Source of the DNA: Henricia sp. BOLD:AAB3569 | Taxonomy: Eukaryota > Echinodermata > Asteroidea > Spinulosida > Echinasteridae | Direction of reading: 5' to 3' | Assembly: GCA_037783545.1 (NCBI GenBank) | Contig: JBBELK010000162.1 | Location: 1,984,001 to 2,048,000 of the forward strand | Length of the DNA: 64,000 nt | Shown here: positions 8,016 through 53,351 of the stretch, in pieces | Layout of the letters: every line of letters begins with the position of its first letter | Numbering within the stretch: position 1 is the stretch's first letter | Position numbers and translations under genes: made by a program | The notes under the pieces: model-generated | The model's database searches: none | What the model saw: only the letters and a program-made list of their open reading frames with translations | What the model was told of the DNA's origin: nothing

Positions 8016-9302
8016 TTAATGCCTTATTAAACAAAACAAACCCATCTCAAAAGCTAACAGCAATTAACGAGAATGGCAAGTTGATTAAAGACGCTACAGC
8101 AATGGCCGAACATTTTAATAGTTACTTTGCAAATATTGGACCAAACCTTGCCCAGAAGATTCCCCAGTCTAGCACTTCTTTTTTTGACTACCTCTCTGAA
8201 CCCAGCCAAAACTGTGTGTTTTTTTACTCCTGCCACTAAATATGAGGTTAAAGATATCATTGACGATCTTCCTAATAAAAAAAGCACAGGTTTAGATGAT
8301 ATCAGTGTGTCTGTTATAAAAAAAAAAGTAATTGATTGCATTATAGACCCCCTTACACATATTATCAATATGTCATTATTATCGGGAATTTTTCCATCTG
8401 ACTTGAAAGTTGCAAAGGTTATTCCTATTTATAAAAGTGGTGAATCTGATCTTGTTAATAACTATAGACCAATATCAATTTTGTCTCAATTCTCAAAAAT
8501 CCTTGAGAAAATTGTTTATAAACGTACATTTGCTTTTTTACAGCAAAATAACACTTCGCAATTTGGATTTAGGACTAAGCATTCAACAACTCATGCAATA
8601 TTACATCTTTGTAATACCATAATAGAAGGTTTTGAAAATTCCCAGCACACACTTGGTATTTTCTTTGATTTTTCGAAGGCATTCGATACTTTGGACCATG
8701 ACATACTTCTTAATAAATTAAACCATTATGGCATCAGGGGTACTCCATTAGCCTGGTTTCGAAGTTATCTTAACCAGAGAAAACAACATGTATTTATTAA
8801 TGGATGTGCATCCACTTCCAGAACCCTGACTTGCGGAGTCCCCCAAGGTTCAATCCTTGGTCCCCTTCTCTTTCTCCTTTATATAAATGACATTACTAAA
8901 TCATCGGATATCTTATCATTCATTCTCTTCGCTGATGATTCCAATATATTTTATAGCCATAAAAATATTCTCACCCTTGTTGATACTGTTAATTCAGAGT
9001 TGAACAGCATAACTGACTGGATAAGGGCAAATAAACTCTCCTTAAATCTAAGTAAAACTTCGTGCATGTTATTTAGCAATTCCCTTAATAAACTGCCAAA
9101 AGATATTTGCATTAATAATTTCAAGATTAATGAAACAAATTCCACGAAGTTTCTAGGTATCTTTATAGATAATAAACTCTCGTGGAAAACACATATAGAT
9201 TACACATGTAAAGTAGTTTCCAAACATATTGGTGTGATTAATCGCCTAAAGCATTTACTTCCGAATGATATTTGCATCATGTTGTACAACAGTTTGATAT
9301 GA
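8016..9302 (+). pseudogene. LINE reverse transcriptase domain
   Basis: The main frame from 8127 reads NYRPISILSQFSKILEKIVY, QFGFRTKHSTTHA, FDFSKAFDTLDHDILLNKL, GVPQGSILGPLLFLLYIND and FADDSNIF. These are RT blocks 1-5, including the catalytic FADD (Y/F-x-D-D). The polymerase core is open for about 360 codons, so decay is moderate. The sequence just upstream (8020-8215) continues the protein in another frame because of an indel in a T-run. A TGA at 9301 interrupts the thumb region. Clade within Jockey/CR1 (Daphne/Crack-like?) is a guess. Confidence 0.93.
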
Positions 9303-22542: not shown

Positions 22543-24890
22543 CCGAGGACGGGCCTCTAAAGGGCAAGTTCAAAGTACCCATAGTTTACATGTGTACTTG
22601 CCAGAGGTCGGGCCTCTGAATACTAAGTGGTAATACATATTCCACATGTACTCTGTACTAGACAGTGGACGGACCTCTGAATGCCGAGTAAATATTACTC
22701 CCAATGCCAAGTTTAATATGCTCCTAGCTTGCATGTGTACTAGGCAGAGGAGGGCCTCTAAATGCCAAGTTGAAATATGCCAAGTTCTGATGTGACTCTA
22801 TTTTTGCATGGGTACTCTTTACTAGACAGCCGGCCTCTGAATTAGCGTATCCCTATTTGCATGTCTGTTATAGAGAGGACGGGCCTATGAAAGGGAAGTT
22901 AATAATATCAATTTTATGAATGCCAAATTTTAATGTGCCCATGTTTTCTATGTGTATAGATACAGGTACTAAACACAGGACGGGTCCCTGTATGTCAAGT
23001 GTAATATACCCATAAATGGCGTGTGTGCTAGACAGAGGACGGGCCTCGGGACGCCAAGCCCAATGAGCATTTATATTGCAGGTGCGATACACAGAGGGCG
23101 GGCCTCTGTATGAATGTACCCTTGATTTGCATGTGTACTCTGTACCAGGCTGAGGGCGTGCCTCTGAATGCCAGGCTTATGGTACATGTGCAATGTAACC
23201 ATATTTTGCGTATACACCGTATGTAGTCTGTACTAGGCAGAGGACGGGCCGCCTCTGAATACCAGGTTTATTGTACAATGTACAATGTAACGCTATTTTG
23301 CATATACACCGTATGTACTCGGTACTAGGCAGAGGACGGGCCTCTGAGTGCCATGTTTATGGTGCAATGTACTTCTATTTCGTATATATGTACTCTGTGC
23401 TAGGCAGAGGACGGGCCTCTGTATGCCATGTTTATGGTACAATGTACTTCTTTTTCGCAGATATGTACTCTGTGCTAGGCAGAGGACGGGCCTCTGAAGG
23501 CCATGTTCATGGTACAAATGTACTTATATTTCGCATATATGTGCTCTGTACTAATTGGCAGAGGACGGGCCTCTGAATGCTATGTTTATGGTACAAATGT
23601 ACTTGGCAGAGGACGGGCCTCTGAATGCTATGTTTATGGTACAAATGTACTTGGCAGAGGACGGGCCTCTGAATGCTATGTTTATGGTACAAATGTACTT
23701 GGCAGAGGACGGGCCTCTGAATGCTATGTTTATGGTGCAATGTACTTGGCAGAGGACGGGCCTCTGAATGCTATGTTTATGGTACAAATGTACTTGGCAG
23801 AGGACGGGCCTCTGAATGCTATGTTTATGGTGCAATGTACTTGGCAGAGGACGGGCTTCTGAATGCTATGTTTATGGTACAAATGTACTTGGCAGAGGAC
23901 GGGCCTCTGAATGCTATGTTTATGGTGCAATTTACTGGGCAGAGGACGGGCCTCTGAATGCTATGTTTATGGTACAAATGTACTTGGCAGAGGACGGGCC
24001 TCTGAATGCTATGTTTATGGTGCAATGTACTCGGCAGAGGACGGGCCTCTGAATTCTATGTTTATGGTACAAATGTACTTGGCAGAGGACGGGCCTCTGA
24101 ATGCTATGTTTATGGTACAAATGTACTTGGCAGAGGACGGGCCTCTGAATGCTATGTTTATGGTGCAATGTACTTGGCAGAGGACGGGCCTCTGAATGCT
24201 ATGTTTATGGTACAAATGTACTTGGCAGAGGACGGGCCTCTGAATGCTATGTTTATGGTGCAATGTACTTCTATTTCGCATATATGTACTCTGTACTAGA
24301 CAGAGGACGGGCCTCTGTGTGCCGTGTTTATGGTACAATGTACTTCTCTTTCGCAGATATGTACTCTGTGCTAGGCAGAGGACGGGCCTCTGAATGCCAT
24401 GTTTATGGTACAAATGTACTTGGATGCCATGTTTATGGTACAAATGTACTTCTATTTCGCATATATATACTCTGTACTTGGCAGAGGACGGGCCTCTGAA
24501 TGCCGTGTTTGTGGTACAATGTACTTCTATTTCGCATATATGCGCTCATACTTGGCAGAGGACGGGCCTCTGAATGCCATGTTTGTGGTACAATGTACTT
24601 CTATTTCGCATATATGTACTCTGTGCCTGGCAGAGGGCGGGCCTCTGAATGCCATGTTTGGGGTACAATGTACTTCTATTTCGCATATATGTACTCTGTA
24701 CTTGGCAGAGGACGGGCCTCTGAATGCCGTGTTTGTGGTACAATGTACTTCTATTTCGCATATATGCGCTCTATACTTGGCAGAGGACGGGCCTCTGAAT
24801 GCCATGTTTGTGGTACAATGTACTTCTATTTCGCATATATGTACTCTGTGCCTGGCAGAGGGCGGGCCTCTGTATGCCATGTTGATGGGC
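22543..24890 (+). repeat. Minisatellite, AGGACGGGCCTCTGAATGC unit
   Basis: From 22543 to about 23500 worn units are spaced about 60-110 bp apart. From 23545 to 24250 units are 47-48 bp and nearly identical, alternating a GGTACAAATGTACTT and a GGTGCAATGTACTT linker. From 24260 to 24890 units are about 95 bp with the longer linker CTATTTCGCATATATG. The homogenised centre indicates recent local expansion. Long open frames on both strands here are products of the repeat and not genes. Confidence 0.95.
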
Positions 24891-33451: not shown

Positions 33452-35792
33452 TTATTGCTTGGTGACGATAATATGATCAGCGTCGTGGCGCAGGAACACC
33501 TTGCCGTCGCTCTGTGACGAAATACCCATAAGATAGTCTCTAAACTCCTTCAAGACTTCGGGAGAGACGCTTTTCCGGAAGTTCATGATATCAGATATGT
33601 AGTCCAGCAGAAGGTCACCGTTTGCGGAGTCGTCGAAGCAAGTCGTGATGTCAAAGTCATGATGATTGTCCTCGTTTTCGCAGATCACGTAGAGAATACC
33701 GCGTTTCTCTAAGTATTCGCAGACGTCCCCACTGTTGTAGAATCCATCCCACTGTTCCTTTGCGAACTTGAAATGCTCTTCCACCTTCATCACACCACAG
33801 TTCTCTGTAAGAACATACAATAAATTGCAATAGACCGTGTAAGTCTCGTTTCGGGTCACACTTCCGGAGACCAGTCAGGGAATGGCAATGGGGTTTTTAA
33901 CGTTGGGGCGATCTTCTTGGAATTATCACCCAAGTATACCGTACCGCCAAATACCAATAAATGGAAAAGGCACCTTAAAATCTATCGAGTTTCCCCCGAG
34001 TCTCCGTGTAAATTCATGTGCGGTAAATGTCAGAGGGTTAGGCAGACAAAAGTAAACCTAACTCCCTAGGGTGTACATGTATGTAAAATCATATTGATTG
34101 AAGAGTGTTAGGATTATTGTTCTGTGATATAATTGTAAACCTCAAAACGCAGTGACGGTCTACACGAATGAAAGATATTCTCAAAAGACTGTTCGACTTA
34201 TTTAACAGTTGTTATGTACATAGAGACTTTTTAATCCATTACCTGATTCCAATGCCACCAGCAAGACGCCTCCTTGTGCCAACCGGTCGTACATGTAGGC
34301 CAACATGTTAAACATTTCCTTTTCGTAATACAAACAGAAGAGGGTGCTAATAACGTGATACTTGGTTGTGTCTCCCGTCCTCTCGCAGGATTGTTTGTAC
34401 TCGCTCAGTGTCTCTGTGCGGAACTCAAACTCCACTCCTTTCAAGTCATCTCGTTTCTCCTCAATGAGTTTCTTGTAGAGGTCAAGTTGAGTCTGGCTGG
34501 GGTCAACGGCGGTATTGTGGATGGCAGGGTACTTAGTCAGGAGTCGCGTCATGAAGTTGTACTCTACTTTACCTGATGAATTGGTAACAATTATAACGAA
34601 ATGCAATATCGGGATAAAAATAAAACCGGCGTCACACTACGTGACCCGATACGTATATCTGACGCCTTCATACTACCGACACTATGAGCAAAAACATGTA
34701 CATGTTCATTGTAACCCCATTGTTAGTAACAATGGTGTGTGCCCAATTTCCATTGTTAGATGTTCATAGTGCGAAGTGTGACGAATTGCCATGGCAATAG
34801 ACTGCCGAAGTGAATACGTCACCTTTTGTTGGTTGCCTATAGGCAATTGGCTCTAAACTAAAAATCACTCAACCGTGTCCCAGTGCTTTTCCAATGGTAC
34901 TTTTCCCGACGGCCATGATAGTTTAGATCCAATTGCCATGGCAACGCACGTCACACTTCGGCTGTCTATTGGCTCTAAACTATCATGTCCGTCGAAAAAA
35001 AGTACCACTGCAAAGCACAGGGACACGGTTTAGTGATTTTTTAGTTTAGAGCCAATTGCCTAGGCAACCAACAAAAGGTGACGTATTCACTTCGGCAGTC
35101 TATTGGAGGCACGCTATTGGTATATAGGCCTACCCCAATTCCATATCGTGATGAAAGGATATAGAGTACTAGAGTAGAAAACGTCAGCATGTGCTGCCAA
35201 GGTTACTGGATCTACACTAAAACTAGTGAACTGTTTCTTTAGTCCTCTATTCAGCTTGCTAACAGGGGCCAATTTCATGGCGTTGCTTAGCACGAAAATT
35301 TGCTTAGCACAGGATTTAATTGCTTTATAAAATGGATTACAAGCAAAAATTATACACCAACTTGTGTTCTTCGCAAGAGTAGGAGAATACCTTTCAATAC
35401 ACATCACTTACGATTTTGGCTGGCAATCCATTTTTGCAAAATAAAGCAAACAAATCCTGTGCTAAGCAAATTTTCGTGCTAAGCAACGCCATGAAATTGG
35501 CCCCTGGGCATGCCTGTTTCATACCGTTATACCAGGTACACTATGGGGTGACATGCATATATACTCAAGTGAACTTCTTGATCATGTTTTAATCAATGAT
35601 TATGTTCTCAAAGCAGTGCCTTGGACATTCAGGGGCGGATCCAGGAATTTTTCCAGGAGGGGGTTTTGCCACCAGGGAGGGGTTTTGCCTATCAGATTTT
35701 TATGTCTGCTTGTTTCAGACAGGCGGACACGCAAAAAATGCATTACATTATATTTGTTGGTGTCGGAGCAGGGGGGGGGGGGGGGGGGGTTG

Positions 35793-36095: not shown

Positions 36096-36346
36096 CTAGA
36101 CCTGTGTTCGTTCTTGACAACGAACACATGGCTGTTCCCCTCCTTTTTATAAACATATATGGTGTTCGGGATGACCTTTGTTAGTGATCGTATATGAAGA
36201 AATCACGATCGTATGTCAAACGGTCGAGTTTTTATCGATTTTTAAATATCAAATGTTATTACATGCCCCTTTAATCTGACATGTAGGGAAGGTCAAAGGT
36301 GTTGATATATGTTTGGATACCCCACCCTAGTCGAAGTGTAACACAA
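36096..36346 (-). mobile_element. Solo Helitron-like 3' end next to gene A
   Basis: On the minus strand the last 250 bp match the ends of the array copies at 38.9, 40.2, 41.3 and 42.8 kb. They contain TATAAAAAGG, a perfect 10-bp stem (TGTGTTCGTT, loop GTCAAG, AACGAACACA), and end in GGTCTAG followed by T. A terminal hairpin before CTAG is the Helitron 3' signature. It stops 29 bp before the gene A ATG. Confidence 0.8.
36145..36151 (-). promoter_or_regulatory. Candidate TATA box for gene A, inside the Helitron-like end
   Basis: TATAAAA on the minus strand lies about 80 bp upstream of the ATG at 36066, placing a start site near 36115, still inside the mobile sequence. No other TATA box is evident in the 200 bp upstream. 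Use as a promoter is inferred from position. Confidence 0.45.
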
Positions 36347-36455
36347 AACCGTAACGAAAACAAAGGCTGTTCCGACCCGAATCGGAACAGCCAAAAATAT
36401 AAAAAATCGTAACGAAAACAAAGGCTGTTCCGACCCGAATCGGAACAGCCAATAA
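36347..36455 (-). repeat. GGCTGTTCCGA hairpin repeat, two units
   Basis: Two units of about 58 bp, each a 28-bp perfect or near-perfect palindrome (GGCTGTTCCGA with its inverse TCGGAACAGCC) followed by TTTGTTTTCGTTACGATTT. Same units occur at 37762-37915 and 38969-39020, at the 5' side of Helitron-like copies. Confidence 0.85.
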
Positions 36456-37740: not shown

Positions 37741-37761
37741 AGGCTCCTCGGATTTATTATT

Positions 37762-37915
37762 GGCTGTTCCGATTCTGGTCGGAACAGCCTTTGTTATTTT
37801 TTTTTGGCTGTTCCGACTCGAGTTGGAACAGCCTTTGTTTTCGTTACGATTTATTTTTGGCTGTTCCAACACGGTTGGGAACAGCCTTTGTTTTCGTTAC
37901 GATTTATTTTTTTTT
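37762..37915 (+). repeat. GGCTGTTCCGA hairpin repeat, three units
   Basis: Three tandem palindromic units of 50-58 bp with diverging centres (ATTCTGG, CTCGAG, ACACGGT), followed by a long T-run before the first array copy. Confidence 0.85.
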
Positions 37916-37933
37916 TTTTTTTTTTTTTTTTTT

Positions 37934-38952
37934 ATTCTTTTACTTCTTCCACTTTTTTCAGACGCTATTTCGGACACTTGCACATTGATGATTGACTTCA
38001 AACTTTACATGGACATTGGTCACTATGTGAATTAGTGCATAGTACTAATGACGTAATCATGACGTCATCACGTGTCAGATTAAAGGGGTATGAAGTTTAA
38101 TAAATTAAATATTCAAAAATCAATAAAAATTCAACCGTTTGACCTACGATCTTGATTCCTTCGCCATATACGATGACTAACAAAAGTCTTTAAGATGCGC
38201 ACACGCCTTGACCTTTGACCTCGTTTCCTATTGGTCAAACAGATTTTGCCTTGCCATTTGAAAGTGGTGCAAGATATTTGGACAAAGTCACTTGTGTTAC
38301 ACTTCGACTAGGGTGGGGTATCTAAAAAATATTTTTGTGACCTTTGACCTTGCTCACTTCCGGTCGAAACCGGAAGTGGCCCTTAGTTTGAAAGTGGTAG
38401 GAGGTATTGAGATGGGCTCAATGGTGTTATTATCAGAGGCCCTTAAGCTTTCCAAAAATATAAGTGATGACGTCATCGTACGAAATAGCGCCCTCTAGCG
38501 ACAAGATGATTACGTAATGAAATATTGGAAAATCAATAAAAAATCAACCGTTTGACCTACGATCTTGATTCCTTCGGCATATACGATGACTAACAAAGGT
38601 CTTTGAGATGCGCACACCCCTTGACCTTTGACCTCGTTTCCTATTGGTCTAACAGATTTTGCCTTGCCATTTGAAAGGGGTACAATATACCACGATGGGG
38701 TCAACTGTGTTACACTTCGACTAGGGTGGGGTATCCAAACATATAGCAACACCTTTGACTTTCCCTACATGTCAGATTAAAGGGGCATGTAATAATATTC
38801 AATATTTAAAAATAGATAAAAACTCAACCGTTTGACCTACGATCGTGATTTCTTCATAAACAATCACTAACAAAGGTCATCCCGAACACCACACATGTTT
38901 ATAAAAAGGAGGGGAACAGCCATGTGTTCGTTTTCAACGAACACATTTCTAG
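37934..38952 (+). mobile_element. Helitron-like array copy 1
   Basis: Begins after a T-run with ATTCTTTTACTTCTTCCAC and ends with a hairpin (GTTCGTTTTCAACGAAC) and CTAG followed by T. Contains three TGACCTTTGACC (DR1) words, two TGACGTCA, and ATTACGTAAT at 38509. No coding. Confidence 0.75.
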
Positions 38953-40185
38953 TTTTTTTTTTTTTGTTTGGCTGTTCCGATTCGGGTCGGAACAGCCTTT
39001 GTTTTCGTTACGATTTTTTTTTTTTTTTTTTTTATTCTTTTACTTCTTCCACTTTTTTCAGACGCTATTTCGGACACTTGCACATTGATGATTGACTTCA
39101 AACTTCACATGGACATTGGTCACTATGTGAAGTTGTGCACAGTACTAATGACGTCATGATGACGTCATCACGTGTCAGATTAAAGGGGTATGAAGTTTAA
39201 TAAATTAAATATTCAAAAATCAATAAAAATTCAACCGTTTGACCTACGATCTTGATTCCTTCGCCATATACGATGACTAACAAAAGTCTTTAAGATGCGC
39301 ACACGCCTTGACCTTTGACCTCGTTTCCTATTGGTCAAACAGATTTTGCCTTGCCATTTGAAAGTGGTGCAAGATATTTGGACAAAGTCACTTGTGTTAC
39401 ACTTCGACTAGGGTGGGGTATCTAAAAAATATGTTGGTGACCTTTGACCTTGCTCACTTCCGGTCGAAACCGGAAGTGGCCCTTAGTTTGAAAGTGAAAG
39501 GAGGTATTGAGATGGGGTCAATGGTGTTATTACCAGAGGCCCTTAAGCTTTCCAAAAATATAAGTGATGACGTCATCGTACGAAATAGCGCCCTCTACCG
39601 ACAAGATGATTACGTAATTAAATATTCAAAAATCAATAAAAAATCAACTGTTTGACCTACGATCTTGATTCCTGTGGCATATACGATCACTAACAAATGT
39701 CTTTAAGATGCGCACAGGGCTTGACCTTTGACCTCGTTTCCTATTGGTCAAACAGATTTTGCCTTGCCATTTGAAAGTGGTACAAGATATCCGCATGTGG
39801 TCAACTGTATTACACTTGGACCTAGGGTGGTGTATCCAAAAAATATGGTCGTGACCTTTGACCTCGTTTCCTATTGGTCTAACAGATTTTGCCTTGCCAT
39901 TTGAAAGGGGTACAATATATCACGATGGGGTCAACTGTGTTACACTTCGACTAGGGTGGGGTATCCAAACATATAGCAACACCTTTGACCTTCCCTACAT
40001 GTCAGATTAAAGGGGCATGTAATAATATTCAATATTTAAAAATCGATAACAACTCAACAGTTTGACCTACGATCGTGATTTCTTCATATACGATCACTAA
40101 CAAAGGTCATCCCGAACACCATATATGTTTATAAAAAGGAGGGGAACAGCCATGTGTTCGTTGTCAAGAACGAACACAGGTCTAG
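38953..40185 (+). mobile_element. Helitron-like array copy 2
   Basis: Includes one GGCTGTTCCGA hairpin unit at 38969-39020 near its 5' side. Ends in hairpin plus GGTCTAG/T. Has four DR1 words (39309, 39438, 39722, 39852), three TGACGTCA and one ATTACGTAAT, and a TATAAAAAGG near 40131. Confidence 0.75.
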
Positions 40186-41344
40186 TTTTTTTTTCTTTTC
40201 CTTCTTCCACTTTTTTCAGACGCTATTTCGGGCACTTGCACATTCATGATTGACTTCAAACTTCACATGGACATTGGTCACTATGTGAATTAGTGCACAG
40301 TACTAATGACGTAATGATGACGTCATCACGTGTCAGATTAAAGGCGCATGAAGTTTAATAAATTAAATATTCAAAAATCAATAAAAAATCAACCGTTTGA
40401 CCTACGATCTTGATTCCTTCGCCATATACGATGACTAACAAAAGTCTTTAAGATGCGCACACGCCTTGACCTTTGACCTCGTTTCCTATTGGTCAAACAG
40501 ATTTTGCCTTGCCATTTGAAAGTGGTGCAAGATATTTGGACAAAGTCACTTGTGTTACACTTCGACTAGGGTGGGGTATCTAAAAAATATGTTGGTGACC
40601 TTTGACCTTGCTCACTTCCGGTCGAAACAGGAAGTGGCCCTTAGTTTGAAAGTGGTAGGAGGTATTGAGATGGGGTCAATGGTGTTATTATCAGAGGCCC
40701 TTAAGCTTTCCAAAAATATAAGTGATGACGTCATCGTACGAAATAGCGCCCTCTAGCGACAAGATGATTACGTAATGAAATATTGGAAAATCAATAAAAA
40801 ATCAACCGTTTGACCTACGATCTTGATTCCTTCGCCATATACGATGACTAACAAGGGTCTTTGAGATGCGCACACCCCTTGACCTTGGACCTCGTTTCCT
40901 ATTGGTCAAACAGAGTTTTCCTTTCCATTTGAAAGTGGTACAAGATATCTGGATGTGCTCAACTGTATTACACTTGGACCTAGGGTGGTGTATCCAAAAA
41001 ATATGGTCGTGACCTTTGACCTCGTTTCCTATTGGTCTAACAGATTTTGCCTTGCCATTTGAAAGTGGTACAAGATATCACGATGGGGTCAACTGTGTTA
41101 CACTTCGACTAGGGTGGGGTATCGAAACATATAGCAACACTTTGACCTTCCCTACATGTCAGATTAAAGGGGCATGTAATAATATTCAATATTTAAAAAT
41201 CGATAAAAACTCAACCGTTTGACCTACGATCGTGATTTTGTTCATATACGATCACTAACAAAGGTCATCCCGAACACCATATATGTTTTTTAAAAAGGAG
41301 GGGAACAGCCATGTGTTCGTTGTCAAGAACGAACACAGGTCTAG
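40186..41344 (+). mobile_element. Helitron-like array copy 3
   Basis: About 1.16 kb, closely similar to copy 2 without the hairpin unit; ends in hairpin plus GGTCTAG/T. Three perfect DR1 words (40467, 40596, 41010) and two TGACGTCA. The TATA word is changed to TTTTAAAAAG here. Confidence 0.75.
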
Positions 41345-42779
41345 TTTTTTATTCTTTTACTTCTTCCACTTTTTTCAGACGCTATTTCGGACACTTGCAC
41401 ATTGATGATTGACTTCAAACTTCACATGGACATTGGTCACTATGTGAAGTTGTGCACAGTACTAATGACGTCATGATGACGTCATCACGTGTCAGATTAA
41501 AGGGGTATGAAGTTTAATAAATTAAATATTCAAAAATCAATAAAAATTCAACCGTTTGACCTACGATCTTGATTCCTTCGCCATATACGATGACTAACAA
41601 AAGTCTTTAAGATGCGCACACGCCTTGACCTTTGACCTCGTTTCCTATTGGTCAAACAGATTTTGCCTTGCCATTTGAAAGTGGTGCAAGATATTTGGAC
41701 AAAGTCACTTGTGTTACACTTCGACTAGGGTGGGGTATGTAAAAAATATGTTGGTGACCTTTGACCTTGCTCATTTCCGGTCGAAACCGGAAGTGGCCCT
41801 TAGTTTGAAAGTGAAAGGAGGTATTGAGATGGGGTCAATGGTGTTATTACCAGAGGCCCTTAAGCTTTCCAAAAATATAAGTGATGACGTCATCGTACGA
41901 AATAGCGCCCTCTAGCGACAAGATGATTACGTAATGAAATATTGGAAAATCAATACAAAATCAACCGTTTGACCTACGATCTTGATTCCTGCGCCATATA
42001 CGATGACTAACAAGGGTCTTTGAGATGCGCACACCCCTTGACCTTGGACCTCGTTTCCTATTGGTCAAACAGATTTTGCCTTGCCATTTGAAAGTGGTAC
42101 AAGATATCTGGATGTGGTCAACTGTATTACACTTAGACCTAGGGTGGTGTATCCAAAAAATATGGTCTTGACCTTGCTCATTTCCGGTCGAAACCGGAAG
42201 TGGCCCTTAGTTTGAAAGTGGTAGGAGGTATTGAGATAGGGTCAATGGTGTTATTATCAGAGGCCCTTAAGCTTTCCAAAAATATAAGAGATGACGTCAT
42301 CGTACGAAATAGCGCCCTCTAGCGACAAGATGATTACGTAATTAAATATTTAAAAATCAATACAAAATCTACCGTTTGACCTACAAAATTGATTCCTTCT
42401 GCATATACGATCACTAACAAATGTCTTTAAGATGCGCACATGGCTTGACCTTTGACCTCGTTTCCTATTGGTCAAACAGATTTTGCCTTGCCATTTGAAA
42501 GGGGTACAATATATCACGATGGGGTCAACTGTGTTACACTTCGACTAGGGTGGGGTATCCAAACATATATCAACACCTTTGACCTTCCCTACATGTCAGA
42601 TTAAAGGGGCATGTAATAAAATTCGATATTTAAAAATCGATAAAAACTCGACCGTTTGACATACGATCGTGATTTCTTCATATACGATCACTAACAAAGG
42701 TCATCCCGAACACCATATATGTTTATAAAAAGGAGGGGAACAGCCATGTGTTCGTTGTCAAGAACGAACACAGGTCTAG
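41345..42779 (+). mobile_element. Helitron-like array copy 4
   Basis: About 1.43 kb, longer because the segment TCCGGTCGAAACCGGAAGTG to the ATTACGTAAT word is duplicated inside it (41770-41930, 42180-42340). Ends in hairpin plus GGTCTAG followed by a TTA microsatellite. Three perfect DR1 words (41626, 41755, 42446) and four TGACGTCA. Confidence 0.75.
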
Positions 42780-43130
42780 TTATTATTATTATTATTATTA
42801 TTTTTTTTATTTTTATTTTTTTATTTTTTTTTTGTCCGGCTCTAATTCATTATATACTGACCAACTAGCAATGGTTTTCTCTTTTTTAACATACATATTC
42901 CTCTGTACTTGTTTACCCAATTTCCCAGGAAAACAGCAATCGAAGAATCACAGAGCATACAGTCACTGCACGAGTGTCTCTGAAAGAAATAAAAGATATA
43001 GGATATGAATTCCAAGTCGTAATATTAATTTTCAATGTATTTGCAAGGGATTTTGATATATTTAAGCAGGAATGTGTCTTTTTTTTTTTTTTTTTGGGGC
43101 ATTATCTGTTCTCTGGTTATTTCTCTCTTA
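42780..43130. other. TTA/T-rich microsatellite and spacer
   Basis: (TTA)n and long T-runs at 42780-42835 and 43078-43096; no gene. Confidence 0.5.
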
Positions 43131-43132
43131 GC

Positions 43133-43490
43133 CAAATGCGAAGGCTTGAATTCAAGTCTCATGACCGCGTACTGTGGAGACCGTGTAAGCGTTTGGAGTA
43201 CATGTACCTAGGTTCGAGCCCCACTTCGACCAACGTGTCTGTGTCCCTGGGCAGGGCACTTAATCCCAGTTGCCTCGTCAACCCAAGCGATATATGGGAA
43301 GCTGTTAAGGGGAATGCCACAATCTAACTGCTGATAGGGTTGTGCGTCTGACCAGCAGCCACCTAGTTGAAGCGAAATGGTTCTGGCGATTCCCTGATGG
43401 CATCGGTAATAATGGTAACAGCGCCTTGAGCACCCTGCAGGGTGGATATGTGCGTTATACAAATCTAATCATTATTATTATTATCTAATA
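43133..43490 (+). repeat. tRNA-derived SINE with V-domain-like core
   Basis: A tRNA-like head has B-box GGTTCGAGCCCC at 43211. It is followed by TGTCCCTGGGCAGGGCACTT, like the conserved central domain of V-SINE/Deu-type families. The 3' end is GCGCCTTGAGCACC with GGATATGTGCGTTATACAAA and an ATT-repeat tail. Transcription would be by Pol III and mobility by a partner LINE. Family naming is tentative. Confidence 0.85.
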
Positions 43491-44347
43491 ACAAATCACG
43501 ACAGCTATTATGTAGCTCATAATAGGCTTATGTCACCTTTGGCTTGGATAATATGACAAGGGCTTAAAATGAAGGTCTAAAAACGCATCGTTCTATATAG
43601 GCTACTTTCTTTGGGATTTGAATTAGACAGTAGTCATTTGTTTTTGGCTAAAATTGCTTTTAAATTACCAGATTACAGCCGTCCGGAAAAGTGTTTGTTT
43701 TGGACCTGGGAGAAAATTGGATAAACCGGTTTGATCAGGTAATATTGAAGTGACATGCTTTCAACCGAGCCATCCCGCTATGTCTAAAAAATAGGGAACG
43801 TAATAGGCAGCCCCTTAAGACTTATGTCACAATCTGAAGTTAGCAAACGTGTCTATAACTCCCCAGGGTGTATGTAACATTATTTATTCTGGAGGGTTGA
43901 ATAGTGTTAGGGCTAATCAAGAGTCAATTATCTTGTAATAATTAAACTAGCAAAACAGTCTATACGTAAAAGTTCCCATAATTTATCAATAAAAGAACCA
44001 TTCTCGAGATTTCATCCATCCATCACTAAGGTCAATCAGTGTGCTTACCAAATCCCGTTCATTCAAGGTTTTATGCATCTTTCGTACTTCTATAGACCAA
44101 ATGAATCCTTGTATCAGTATCTAAAGCTTGTACAACACACAAACCCATCGTCTAGATTTGGCAATAAGAATGTCACACGATCGACAGTGGAGAAGGAGCC
44201 GTTTCATCATTATTATAGTAAAGAGCAAGGGTGCAGACGAGAAGCCAAATAAGGGAGAATGTTCATTTAATTGACCCATGTGAATCCGAGGTATCTTCGA
44301 TAGTCGAGTGCGACATTTGTACGATGATAACCCTATTTTAGATATAT
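43491..44347. other. No gene or repeat recognised
   Basis: No convincing frame or element ends. Confidence 0.4.
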
Positions 44348-44625
44348 ATTGTGCGTTTTATGAAATAACTGAAGACGTTTCTTCACGTCTGTAGTTAAAT
44401 TGCATGTTAAAAAGGAAGGGTCGAGATTACTAAAATCTAATATAAGGCATCTTTGCCCGAGGATTGGTATAGAAATATATAAACGATAATTGTGCGTTCT
44501 GTGAAAAGAACTGAAGACGTTTCTTCCATTTCTGTAGTTGAAATGCATGTTGAAAACGAAGGGTCGTAATCACTCACATTTAGTATAAGGCGTCTTTTGC
44601 CCGTAGGCTATGCGATATGCGAATA
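44348..44625 (+). repeat. Tandem duplication, 141-bp unit
   Basis: ATTGTGCGTT, AACTGAAGACGTTTCTTC, CTGTAGTT, GCATGTT and GAAGGGTCG recur in order at 44348 and 44489; about 75-80 percent identical. Confidence 0.8.
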
Positions 44626-45767
44626 GTATATTGGAATTGAACAATTTTTGTATAGATTCTAACAAAGGATTTCTCTGACAATGCAAACTTGTTTACAATT
44701 ACGATGGGAGAGAGAAAGCAACGAAAGGAACTTGATTTCCTTCCTTGATAACTGATAACCATATGCACCAATTCTTCCCAGAACAGAGCATGGGCTATTA
44801 ATTTTTCTTACACTTTCACAGTATCACACTATTGGCTACTGGTACATTCTTCATAATTACATCGCACCTTTATGACGTCATCTCACTTATGTTCATCCTG
44901 AATGATGCCCGAGTTGCAGTACCCTCGTGCTGTATCAGGCTCGCTGATCTTAGTTGGGACTACACCAGATCAAGATGGGCCGGCAAATGCTGGGAGTATT
45001 GTTTTCAGCTGTCCTGGGATGGAATGAAGTGTAGCTGAAGGGTAGAGTGGGTGGGACTCTGCTCGAAACTGTACCGGGATATCCTGTGACTAATAGGACT
45101 TGGGGGAAAAGTTAAAATGTCGTTGAATACGTCATTTCACATTACAGATAATTGCCTGTAAATTCCAAAAACTACTTTTATTGCATAAACAGAGCAATCG
45201 GTAGCCGAGATAAGCATATTAGAAATTAGCCGTTTCCCGCGAAATCGTGTACATGTACATGTGTATGTGACTGAATACAAGAGAGCTCGAAGATGCGATT
45301 AACTATGAAGCGCCCTCACAGTGACAGATTGCGCCAGCAAAGAATTATTAAAGTCTGATTAGTCTTAGTTCAACACGCTATATCTTGTTTTGCGCTAATT
45401 AAAATGGAAGAGTACCTATATTATATATGTGTAATAGCACATATTCACGCCTATATAATAAAGACTACGCACTCGACGAAATTTGCTTGACATACGAGGG
45501 CGCTCCTTATTGCTAGTCATAGAGAGAAACCACAGTTTAAAAAACAAACAAACAAACAAACAACATCACATTTCAAACAGTAGCAGTAGCCTACTGATCC
45601 ATTTCTGACCCAAACAAACTTGTTGGGATTGTTGCAACTGACATACTAAACAAACTCGGTAAACTGTTACAGATCATAACACCAAGAATTCACCGAAAAT
45701 GACAATTTTGTACACAAGTCAATGGATATTTCCTCTGTTATTGTGTGTCTTTGTTTTTTTTTTTTTT

Positions 45768-45801
<34 letters not shown>

Positions 45802-45881
45802 GAAAATGATCGTAATGTGTAAAACACACCCTGTACTATAATTATATTTAATAAAAACCTTATTTAACACGTCCTTTAAAC
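44626..45881. other. No gene recognised; microsatellites
   Basis: Simple repeats (AAAC)n at about 45541 and T-run plus (TTG)n at 45755-45801. No convincing coding sequence. Confidence 0.45.
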
Positions 45882-46518
45882 AAATGTCAATGGGTATAGT
45901 TACCAGTGGAATAGGTATGCCTCAAACTGAAGGCTCGTAGAATACACAAGGTTTTATGTGAACATACTTTAGTGAGCGTAAAGACCCGAATGCCGACTAC
46001 AGAGTATGCAGACAATGCAAGGCGTGAATTAGGTTAACAAAGGTAGAGGATTTCGTCTATAGTGAGATGTTACCAACGGATAAAGCTAAATTGATCCGCA
46101 ACTTCAGAAACGGCAAGAATGCGTTGTAAAACTGAGCAGTATAGTGTACCCACAGTGCACGCGCGATGACGTCACGGATTTCGAATTCCCTATAACGCGG
46201 CAAAAGGCAGTCAGAGTCCGGGCATCTTACCAGTTAAAGCTCATAGGAGGCCTGTGAATAAAAAAGAAATTTGGACGGAAAATACGTGGAAACTTAACGT
46301 GAAGTTAAGCAAATCTCAATGGGTAGTTAGCAGTGGAACGGTAGACCTGAAATGAAGGCTCGGGGAATGCACTGGGTTTTATGTGAACATGCTTCAGTAA
46401 GCGCAGTGACCTGTATACTGACTACAGAGTATGCGAACAATGCCTGCAGGCATAAATTAGGTTAACAAAGGTACTGCAATTTGTCTATATTGAGGGGCGT
46501 TACCAACGAATAAAACTC
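45882..46518 (+). repeat. Direct duplication of about 205 bp
   Basis: 45882-46087 and 46311-46518 match in order (TCAATGGGTA, TTTTATGTGAACAT, GACTACAGAGTATGC, TTAGGTTAACAAAGGTA, GTTACCAACG) with about 80 percent identity. Confidence 0.8.
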
Positions 46519-46664
46519 CATCCCTATTCCCTCCTATTTTGTGTCATAAATAAGTGTTTTTCTTCAAACTGTCCGCCATGTTTTACTACTCGCGGTTACT
46601 AGGTGACGTCATTACACCTTGCTTTACACCACAGACCCGCCCGCGAGCTCGGGCAGTGGTGGCT

Positions 46665-47955
46665 GCCACCGGGGCGCACATTTTTGTTTTACACCACTGC
46701 GAGGGGAATTTGGCAGAAAACGCACAATTTCAATGCTGGTGAAGAGACTAAAGTTCCCCGTACGTATACATGTGCTATACAATGCGCTGTACATGTGCAT
46801 GTAGATTGTTTACGTACGTACTGTACATGTATTATAATAAGATAAATTTCATGATTGATTAGGAAGGAAAAACAAAAACAAAAACTGCATACATATTAAA
46901 ATATCAGCCAAATGATCAGTGCATGTTTTTTATGTTGAATGAATGGTGAAATATTTTTGTGAAACAAAACACCATCGATCGACGGAATTAAGTCCCCAAA
47001 AGTATGTATAAGCCCATCTGGCATAAGGCATTTCTTTCCTCCAAATGTATAAGTTAACTCGATCTGTTTCCAAAACTTGTTTTTCTTCTTTCTATCGAAA
47101 CGCGTTTCGATAGTTCTTTCGAAATGATATTTCGATCGTTCTTTCGGAACGACGTTTCAATCGTTCTTTCGAAACGACGTTTCGATCGTTAATTCTTTCA
47201 AAACGACGTTTCGATCGTTCTTTCGAAACGCGCGTTTCGGTCGTTCTTTCGAAACGACGTTTCGATCGCTCTTTCGAAACGCGCGTTTCGGTCGTTCTTT
47301 CGAAACGCGCGTTTCGATCGTTCTATCGAAACGTTTTGATCGCTCTTTCGAAACGCGCGTTTCGATCGTTCCATCATAACGACGTTTCGATCGTTCTTTC
47401 GAAATGTTTCGGTCGTTCTTTTAAAACGCGCGTTTCGATCGTTCTTTCAAAACGACGTTTCGATCGTTCTTTCGAAACACTTAATTTTTGATTGTTTTTT
47501 TTTTTAAACACTATAATTTCAAACGTTCCCTCCAAACACTTTTTCAATCACTTCTTCTAAATAATCCGAAAATTCTGATGTTAAGAATTGTAAAATTCTT
47601 TAAAATTACCCAGTAAAAATATCATTCATGTCAGTAGGTGCATATTTGATATGGAAAAACCCCGTTGAAGGTGGGAAAATATAGAAGACTTTCACAGGGA
47701 ACACATATTTTTCAGCCTACGTGTAGTATCTTTAAACTATGTTTTGCATACAAGATCTCAAAGCCAAGATCGGCTACCCCTCATTTTTTTTCTGTGGTGA
47801 AAAGTAACCGGTATCATCGTCGGTCGACAGACACGCGGTTTGCAATCATTGGCTTATTACGCATGCGCGACTTTTTCGTAGTCTTTGTACGTGTGCTGTA
47901 ACGAATGATTACCCCTCGCAGTGGTGTAAAAAAAAAAATGCGCCACCGGGGCAGA
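46665..47955. mobile_element. 1.3-kb element with TTTTACACCACTGCGAGGGG ends
   Basis: CCACCGGGGCGCACATTTTT with TTTACACCACTGCGAGGGG at the left is matched in inverse orientation at 47905-47955. Same ends as the MITE at 4507-4858. The middle holds the TTTCGAAACG minisatellite. No transposase seen; no clear target duplication. Confidence 0.6.
47090..47478. repeat. Minisatellite of self-complementary TTTCGAAACG units
   Basis: About 15 units of roughly 25 bp, consensus CGATCGTTCTTTCGAAACGA followed by CGTTT, alternating ACGACGTTTCG and ACGCGCGTTTCG centres. Each unit contains the palindromes TTTCGAAA and CGATCG, so single strands could form hairpins in many registers. Confidence 0.9.
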
Positions 47956-52165: not shown

Positions 52166-52213
52166 TTAAGTTTTATTGTTGCAATATTCTTTAAATGTTA
52201 ATCATTTCTCTAG

Positions 52214-53351
52214 GCAAGGTAGAGTCCAACTTCATTACGCGACTCCTGACCAAGTATCATGCCATCCACAATACCGTGGTAGACCCTAGTCGCCTCCACG
52301 TCGACCTCTACAAGAAACTCATTGAGAAGAAACAAGATGACTTGAAAGGAGTGGAGTTTGAATTCCGCACAGAGACACTGAGCGAGTACAAACAATCCTG
52401 CGAGAAGACGGGAGACACGACCAAGTATCATGTAATTAGCGCCCTCTTCTGTCTATATTATGAGACAGAAATTACCGCCATCATGTTGGATTTCCTCTAC
52501 GATCGATTGGCACAAGGGGGCGTCCTGCTCGTGGCTATGAAATCAGGTAATTATAATTAAAATTTCGCACTATACTAAGACATTGTTTCAACAGACTAAA
52601 GAGGTATACAGTATAGGCTTTTAGGAATATTATCTTTCATCCGTTAGTATAGCGGAATGGAGTTTTGAGGCTTACAAGTAGGCTGCTTAGACATAAGCGG
52701 AAGGTTGGTTTAACTTTGTTAAATGCTCATCCAAATATGATTACAATTGATGATTTATCTATCAAAATTAACGGATGGTTTATTCTCGTGAAGGACTTTT
52801 GAATGCCCTATATGTGAGACTGGATTTGCCATAAACTGGACTGCAGCATTTACCATTTCTGCAACCAATAGTCTTTTCAGACGCGCACTCCAAACAACTA
52901 AAGTGCCAAGTTTGTTTGTTTACAACAAAATTCATATGCAGTGTCTTTTATAACGTCCATCCACGTTCAGCAGTATAATTACTTTATGTTTGCAGAGAAT
53001 TGTGACCTAATAAGGGTGGAAGCGCGGTTCCAGTTAGCAAACGACGACCGGAATCCAAGCTACAGCAGTCTGCACGTCCGCGAATACTTGGAGAAACGCA
53101 GCATTCCTTACGTGAACTGCGATAACAAAGACGACCACCATGACTTTGACATCACGACGTGCTTCGACGACGCCGACCCAAACGGTCACCTTACGCTCGA
53201 TTTACTGTCTAGTGTCATTAACTTTCGTAAGAATGTCTCTCCCGAAGTCTTGACGGAATTCAGAGACTATCTCATGAGCATTGCGTCGCAGAGAGATGGT
53301 AAGGTATTCTTGCGCCGCGACACTGACCACATCATCGTCAACAAACGATAA
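52214..53351 (+). CDS. Histamine N-methyltransferase-like protein, gene B (exons 2-3)
   Basis: Exon 52214-52546 (AG acceptor, GTAATT donor) and exon 52996-53351 (acceptor TTTGCAG) are open and in the same phases as gene A. Together they encode about 230 residues: GKVESNFITRLLTKY, VVDPSRLHVDLYKKL, KYHVISALFCLYYETE, then HDFDITTCFDDADPNGHLTL and GKVFLRRDTDHIIV. Identity to gene A is roughly 70 percent. The AdoMet loop exon (exon 1) was not found between 43 and 52 kb, which is transposon-rich; it may be further left, diverged or lost. The residue aligned with human Asn283 is Arg, so the substrate is open. Orientation is head to head with gene A. Confidence 0.85.

Follow-up and report, generated by a model that had tools for sequence, protein, structure and literature searches.

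We show that the tandem block at positions 37761-42779 (plus strand) of a 64,000-nucleotide stretch of the Henricia sp. BOLD:AAB3569 genome (contig JBBELK010000162.1, positions 1,984,001 to 2,048,000; hereafter the window) is made of copies of a transposon family, F1, whose ends within this block are ordered like balanced brackets. The mitochondrial sequence agrees with a sea star as the most likely host, since COX1 has AAA at conserved asparagine and ATA at conserved isoleucine positions, as the echinoderm code requires, and a reversed ND1 frame and a tRNA cluster stand ahead of COX1, a gene order typical of sea stars. It is highly probable that F1 is a young Helentron-type HINE, a non-autonomous rolling-circle transposon, and insertion of new copies into older ones was probably the main builder of the array. 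The F1 cores also carry many consensus words for transcription factors, on which an earlier sequence-only reading of the window had centred; the rule of nested arrays, which that reading did not contain, is better supported than the regulatory interpretation.

As in HINEs, F1 has subterminal inverted repeats, with GGCTGTTCC directly past the 5' TT and the inverted GGAACAGCC beginning 43 bp before the 3' end, and a 3' palindrome, a 10-bp stem (TGTGTTCGTT/AACGAACACA) that stops seven bases short of the end. Isolated copies, picked by their exact 3' ends (L044-L063), begin with (T)TGGCTGTTCC..GGAACAGCCTTTGTTTTCGTTACG or a sequence close to it and finish with GGAACAGCCATGTGTTCGTTGTCAAGAACGAACACAGGTCTAG, then TT. 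All 22 GGTCTAG ends at L043-L063 are followed by TT, and at least two T precede GG at each of the 14 visible left boundaries (12 loci and two window copies). At L047, the two flanks, once joined, match another repeat across the junction in the 40 best rows (from query position 1-4 to 160 of 160), and the single empty site that was read out (L090) is an uninterrupted ACTTATTTCTTTT, with neither duplication nor loss; F1 shares with HINEs a TT target and the absence of a target-site duplication. By itself, the L090 empty site is compatible with a T/T or an A/T target, and we prefer T/T because some boundaries have no A before the T run. The sequence-only reading had described a mobile, tandem, Helitron-like element, which holds in kind but not for a canonical Helitron. 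The CTAG terminus and the hairpin stopping seven bases before the end do have the canonical form, but the boundaries read begin with (T)TGGCTGTTCC and not with TC, and canonical A/T insertion was rejected because the base before TTGG is A at 6, T at 7 and G at 1 of the 14 visible left boundaries. The anatomy is that of a Helentron or HINE, and the order of the parts fits nested insertion. Two of the isolated copies (L048 and L059; 1,683 and 1,680 bp) share 1,676 identities with 4 mismatches and 3 gaps, a near-identity which implies that F1 was recently active.

Within the array, whose palindromes and cores lie on the plus strand, the first 5' subterminal palindrome, GGCTGTTCC...GGAACAGCC, occupies 37762-37789 and two more are stacked behind it at 37806-37833 and 37859-37886, the third being followed by a T-tract up to about 37936. 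Core copy 1 (37941-38952) is succeeded by a fourth palindrome (38970-38997) with its own T-tract and by core copy 2 (39035-40185), while copies 3 (40186-41344, joined at a T-tract) and 4 (41345-42779) have no 5' palindrome of their own. The four tandem copies counted previously, each with a hairpin and CTAG followed by T, are borne out by 3' ends at 38952, 40185, 41344 and 42779, each consisting of a hairpin, the terminus TTTCTAG in copy 1 or GGTCTAG in the remaining three, and then TT. At the last of these (42737-42779), the inverted subterminal repeat GGAACAGCC, the 10-bp hairpin TGTGTTCGTT/AACGAACACA, GGTCTAG and TT stand in this order. A fifth, internally deleted F1 copy with two 5' palindromes and one 3' end lies on the minus strand at 36096-36452; a search for its empty site gave no clean one, with repeat membership in the left flank only.

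Written as tokens, with a 5' palindrome as an opening and a 3' end as a closing bracket, the window array gives the string (((]())), which parses as ((( ) ( ) ) ), with four palindromes and four ends, balanced and never negative. Across the genome searched (740.7 Mb, 2,104 contigs), exact matching, which misses altered or cut ends, found 2,533 palindromes and 2,852 3' ends against reversed controls of 0; these and the other genome counts may be inflated, as some contigs look like duplicate haplotypes (C898/C1007, with matching Rep rows). Twelve clusters were parsed from among the matches listed for both tokens, taken from contigs C1-C7 plus the first copy on C8. Nine of them never become negative, and seven are exactly balanced, five of those seven being single copies (1:1). 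An 18-kb array (C1:556-574k) holds 12 palindromes and 12 ends, balanced and never negative, and at C2:327-335k seven stacked palindromes are followed by six ends. A strict word, applied to the loci and the window, detected 37 core starts. Only 16-38 bases separate 18 of them from a preceding 3' end, and a 5' palindrome precedes 14; of the others, four open their locus as its first token and one comes after another core.

Some observations count against so regular a rule. Five of the 12 clusters are unbalanced, ends outnumber palindromes in three of the 12 (all on C3), and the minus-strand copy in the window parses 2:1. At L045 the palindrome is cut and was missed by exact matching, which does not thereby establish the cause of imbalance elsewhere. 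In addition, a random token order would yield a non-negative 12:12 word with probability 0.076, so that no single word is decisive and the case for nesting rests on the stacking of the palindromes and the near-equal numbers of the two tokens. Pairing between palindrome and end types (Fisher p=0.045; 6 vs 17 pairs in a count by eye) involves too few cases to be given weight.

The nesting pattern is observed, and from it we infer the following mechanism. F1 would insert at T-rich sites, and full copies hold such a T-tract just inside their 5' palindrome. A new copy landing in the T-tract of an older one would leave the old 5' palindrome to its left and the old core to its right, and repeated self-insertion would leave a pile of 5' palindromes on the left and, after them, cores that lack one. 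It is improbable that the array arose instead by rolling-circle read-through or insertion of concatemers, as for other Helitron arrays. In the parts of the sources available, a bypassed terminator is thought to yield the tandem Helitron arrays of bat and silkworm (PMC4067079), and arrays in plants are attributed to loss of the 3' terminator (PMC12628747). However, read-through predicts a 5' end ahead of every copy, whereas here the 5' palindromes are stacked at the left, and terminator loss predicts many 5' ends with one 3' end, whereas here the two occur in near-equal numbers. Beside nested insertion, the recurrence of the spacings 1162 and 1441 on C8 suggests that block duplication also contributes to arrays. 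On C10, two arrays about 350 kb apart (305550-308443, plus strand; 655183-658076, minus strand) have the same 3'-end spacings (1291 and 1570) in opposite orientation, and represent either an inverted duplication or an assembly artefact.

The genome also holds autonomous Helentrons, with 150 scored PF14214 matches, many of them in open frames of more than 3,000 aa, and one element examined (L039/L040) has OTU, DUF6570, PIF1 helicase and Exo_endo_phos domains. A point against the picture drawn here is that none of 10 autonomous loci scanned, not all of which need reach the 3' end, carries F1 ends that would mark it as an autonomous partner; an 80% match to the 5' end at L042 proved to belong to a related family, F371, downstream of that autonomous element. 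Two of the autonomous loci (L040:2860-4062 and L041:5406-7330) have, behind the long frame, an approximately 79-bp tandem repeat, in which TTGGCTG recurs and the copy number differs. Separately, Helitron_like_N matches with short or broken frames are grouped on contigs C159, C585, C708 and C898/C1007, about 14-22 kb apart in places, in contrast to the dispersed Helentrons with frames of more than 3,000 aa; C898 and C1007 resemble two haplotypes of one region.

The regulatory words that had been reported in the array are all present. DR1 (direct repeat 1) is a binding word of HNF4/RXR, and the cAMP-response element (CRE) word TGACGTCA is one of CREB/ATF. All 13 exact DR1 words (AGGTCAAAGGTCA) of the window lie on the minus strand at 38209-42458, starting at 38209, 38338, 38622, 39309, 39438, 39722, 39852, 40467, 40596, 41010, 41626, 41755 and 42446 (shuffle mean 0.00), with recurring spacings of 130, 284 and 414 bp. 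The CRE word occurs 11 times in the array (38060-42299), including two perfect doublets (TGACGTCATGATGACGTCA) at 39149 and 41466, out of 17 occurrences in the whole window, for which the shuffle mean is 0.71. All five copies of the bZIP word ATTACGTAAT are inside the array, at 38509, 39609, 40767, 41926 and 42333 (span 38509-42342; shuffle mean 0.07). Copy 2 further carries an ETS-type inverted pair, ACTTCCGGTCGAAACCGGAAGT, at 39456-39477, which is perfect or altered in the other copies. The half-site TGACC/GGTCA is found 11 times in the non-redundant F1 unit against 1.7 expected, above all 1000 shuffles, as are the CRE and CCGGAAGT, which we take to be an ETS word, and TTACGTAA is above all but 14 of 1000. 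The DR1, CRE/PAR and ETS words are each above shuffles in those family segments that hold them, and a Helentron 3' repeat used as a control contains none of the factor words.

Genome-wide, AGGTCAAAGGTCA has 19,949 perfect occurrences against 24 for its reversed control, AGGTCAAAGTTCA has 6,423 (control 31), ACTTCCGGTCNAAACCGGAAGT has 5,531 (control 0), and TGACGTCATNNTGACGTCA has 9,878 strand hits, in which palindromic places are counted twice (control 1). Most of 100 AGGTCAAAGGTCA places among the matches listed are in regularly spaced clusters. The sequence-only reading had proposed comparing substitutions inside and outside the words and had conceded that copying alone could explain their presence. 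We made this comparison over four modules in copies taken from the window and from 22 loci selected for their 3' end or 3' region, with circular shifts as the null; these copies are young, with module means of 94-98% to the consensus. In module R1 (75 copies, 66 distinct) the words diverge less than the rest (0.026 vs 0.070, about 2.7 times less; 2 of 257 shifts as low), with values of 0.028 and 0.039 for its two DR1 words and 0.008 for CCAAT, although R1 divergence is largely between subrepeat types and an altered DR1, TGACCTTGGACCT, stands in 15 of the 66 distinct rows. Module R3 holds none of the words tested.

A second line of evidence comes from F351 and F371, related families named after their repeat periods and met beside autonomous elements. 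The alignment of F1 with F351 exceeds shuffles at two places only, the 5' block (88 bases) and the ETS pair (60 shuffles each). Outside the 5' block, the two families nevertheless have in common 10 distinct, partly overlapping 10-mers with a GC content of 40% or more (null mean 0.84, 0 of 300 shuffles), located in the CRE, the ETS pair, CTTTGACCTC and ATTGACCCCA, and 13 GC-filtered 9-mers (null 2.23, 0 of 300). The F1 centre is marginally similar to F371 at the ATTACGTAAT word, with a score of 38 against a shuffle maximum of 37 (60 shuffles). Copying alone is in part contradicted, by the DR1 and CCAAT words of R1 and by the CRE, ETS and half-site words shared with F351, but neither by R0 nor by F371; the substitution comparison came out as lower in the words of R1, weak in R2 and without difference in R0.

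Other results weigh against a special role for the words. In R2 (40 copies, 32 distinct) the words diverge at 0.0255 vs 0.0451, with 19 of 202 shifts as low, and in R0, which holds the CRE doublet and an E-box (43 copies, 31 distinct), at 0.0235 vs 0.0278, with 60 of 157 shifts as low. Neither CCAAT nor CACGTG is in excess in the F1 unit (717 and 145 of 1000 shuffles). The six TGACGTCA words outside the array (20707, 32013, 44873, 46167, 46604 and 59300), which show no match to the repeats compared, already exceed the shuffle expectation, and control DNA at window positions 43000-47000 contains three against 0.03 expected (0 of 500 shuffles), an excess from which it follows that the CRE word by itself does not set F1 apart. 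Sharing between F1 and F371 is not significant, either for 10-mers (2, null 0.85, 68 of 300) or for 9-mers (119 of 300). Moreover, the GC filter was introduced after mixed unfiltered counts, in which 9-, 10- and 11-mers gave 12, 2 and 33 of 200 shuffles for F351 and 83, 25 and 5 of 200 for F371. F351 and F371 themselves have long conserved stretches in common that are not known factor sites, and their alignment was dropped as evidence, conservation extending beyond the factor words. Lastly, DR1 and CRE are absent from the autonomous elements sampled at both ends (L088/L039 and L089/L041), although single CRE words occur in some partly read autonomous loci (L065, L066 and L068). Inheritance of the words from autonomous Helentrons was rejected as well, the words of L040 sitting past the 3' end of that element, in a separate F351 copy.

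These results can be accommodated in several ways. The words could be hitch-hikers from the founder repeats, made abundant by recent copying and homogenisation, with neither binding nor selection, and we give this account nearly an even chance. It is consistent with the youth of the copies, two of which are almost identical, with the lack of extra conservation in R0 and the little in R2, with the non-significant sharing between F1 and F371, and with the over-representation of TGACGTCA beyond the array. It accounts poorly for the slower decay of the R1 words, for the excess of DR1, CRE/PAR and ETS words in the segments that hold them, and for the GC-containing 10-mers that F1 and F351 share in a centre that otherwise fails to align. 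Conversely, that the words have been retained beyond what copying gives is a claim to which we lend slightly less than even credence, having reduced its odds because the CRE is in excess beyond the array too and the ETS pair has kept its pairing. Such pairing would suit a structural role, in which the CRE doublet and the ETS pair would be kept as single-strand hairpins for rolling-circle replication and not as protein sites. Both palindromic words can fold by sequence, and all nine pairs of the ETS pair are kept in 24 of 32 distinct rows, 9 of which have a change on one side that gives a G-T pair. The CRE doublets behave differently: of 31 distinct ones, 14 lose at least one pair, none restores the hairpin, and the changes are mainly to TGACGTAA (10 of 31), presumably another bZIP word. 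DR1, moreover, is not palindromic, and we regard the structural role as unlikely.

Among readings that invoke selection, we prefer, because of the word sharing across families, one in which the element itself benefits. The cores contain consensus words to which nuclear receptors (DR1), bZIP factors (CRE and ATTACGTAAT) and ETS factors might bind, and copies that dock host factors might stay open in the cells relevant to transposition and be copied more, whereby selection at the level of the element would keep some of the words. Judged from sequence, selfish docking as the reason for retention is a tentative proposal, more doubtful than not. The same caution applies to the wider possibility that several related Helentron families under selection keep a common set of words (DR1, CRE/bZIP and the ETS pair) despite turnover of their centres, multiplying by self-nesting into enhancer-like blocks with tens of thousands of sites and forming a mobile nuclear-receptor/bZIP network or sink; this is conceivable, with the balance of probability clearly against it.

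The array lies between two genes resembling histamine N-methyltransferase (HNMT), as had been reported. On its left, an exon at 34202-34636 (minus strand) matches the histamine N-methyltransferase entry PDB 1jqd (E=1.9e-10), and on its right an exon at 52207-52551 (plus strand) is 80% identical to it; a second paralogous pair of stretches, 33452-33823 and 52979-53351, extends the two genes to 33452-34636 and 52207-53351. A first exon was not found for either, and a candidate at 35114-35407 has no PDB match. The genes are divergent, with the array 5' of the exons found in both, and it bears consensus words, both of which would suit an array co-opted as an enhancer of the two genes; the sequence-only reading had put forward such an enhancer or a receptor sponge. 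However, the exons found are no nearer than about 3 kb and 9 kb, and F1 counts across the genome reach 2,533 for palindromes and 2,852 for ends; with thousands of other ends in the genome, a location beside HNMT genes needs no special explanation, and such co-option is very improbable.

F1 has clear parallels among known elements, compared here within the parts of the cited studies that were available. HINE/DINE-1 elements are non-autonomous Helentrons (Thomas et al. 2014, PMC4067079), with which F1 shares subterminal inverted repeats (palindromic in mite families), a 3' palindrome, a TT or T-rich target, a variable T run and, in some copies, tandem repeats. Unlike them, F1 ends in CTAG, giving it the look of a canonical Helitron, has DR1, CRE and ETS words in its central repeats, and stacks up to seven 5' palindromes. 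Cg_HINE of Crassostrea gigas (PMC7492417) likewise has central repeats of satellite type framed by HINE flanks, inserts at T-rich sites without duplication, shows related flanks around unrelated central repeats, and has no identified autonomous partner. Its monomers are about 140-180 bp, in contrast to the DR1 spacings of 130, 284 and 414 bp in F1, and the available part of its description mentions neither factor sites nor a nested array order. In FoHeli of Fusarium oxysporum, multiple 5' termini have already been ascribed to self-insertion, and a 5' hairpin has bases repeated inverted near the 3' end, as in F1; FoHeli, however, has multiple short 5' termini, a single 3' terminus and few nested cases, whereas F1 forms long arrays with near-equal ends (PMC5148889). 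The helitron-derived ISX of Drosophila miranda is a rolling-circle element that spreads protein-binding sites for dosage compensation, and its sites are reported as functional, with affinity tested and selection, whereas the F1 words are known from sequence alone (PMC4384637). Our literature search returned no papers joining Helitron with nuclear receptor, binding sites and CREB, and none combining at least three of transposable elements, HNF4A binding, DR1 motif and invertebrate; TGACCTTTGACC was not found among the matches listed.

Other features of the window and of the loci read are recorded here. A tRNA-related, sequence resembling a short interspersed element lies shortly past the array at 43140-43480, with GGTTCGAGCCCC and a ATTATTATT tail, and was recognised by eye. 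A reverse transcriptase frame at 8085-9299 (RVT_1, E=3.3e-36) is probably derived from a retroelement. Further satellite-like tandem arrays occupy 23134-24883 (48/75 bp units), with zero of the factor words tested, and 47090-47478 (25 bp units). At L077:485-630, two copies of AATGTAAACAAAGCAATGACGTCA, which we take to be a FOX-like word, adjoin a CRE, and comparison of this segment with three Helentron families gave no match beyond the CRE doublet.

Our findings bear on how rolling-circle transposons shape this genome. Balanced brackets that record the order of insertion provide a readable rule for the way in which a rolling-circle transposon may turn into satellite-like arrays. Because related families have replaced most of their centres, they allow a natural test of the idea that host-factor sites are retained to the advantage of the transposon itself. 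If the words bind, the genome would have gained about 20,000 perfect DR1 sites, apparently for the most part by way of transposon families.

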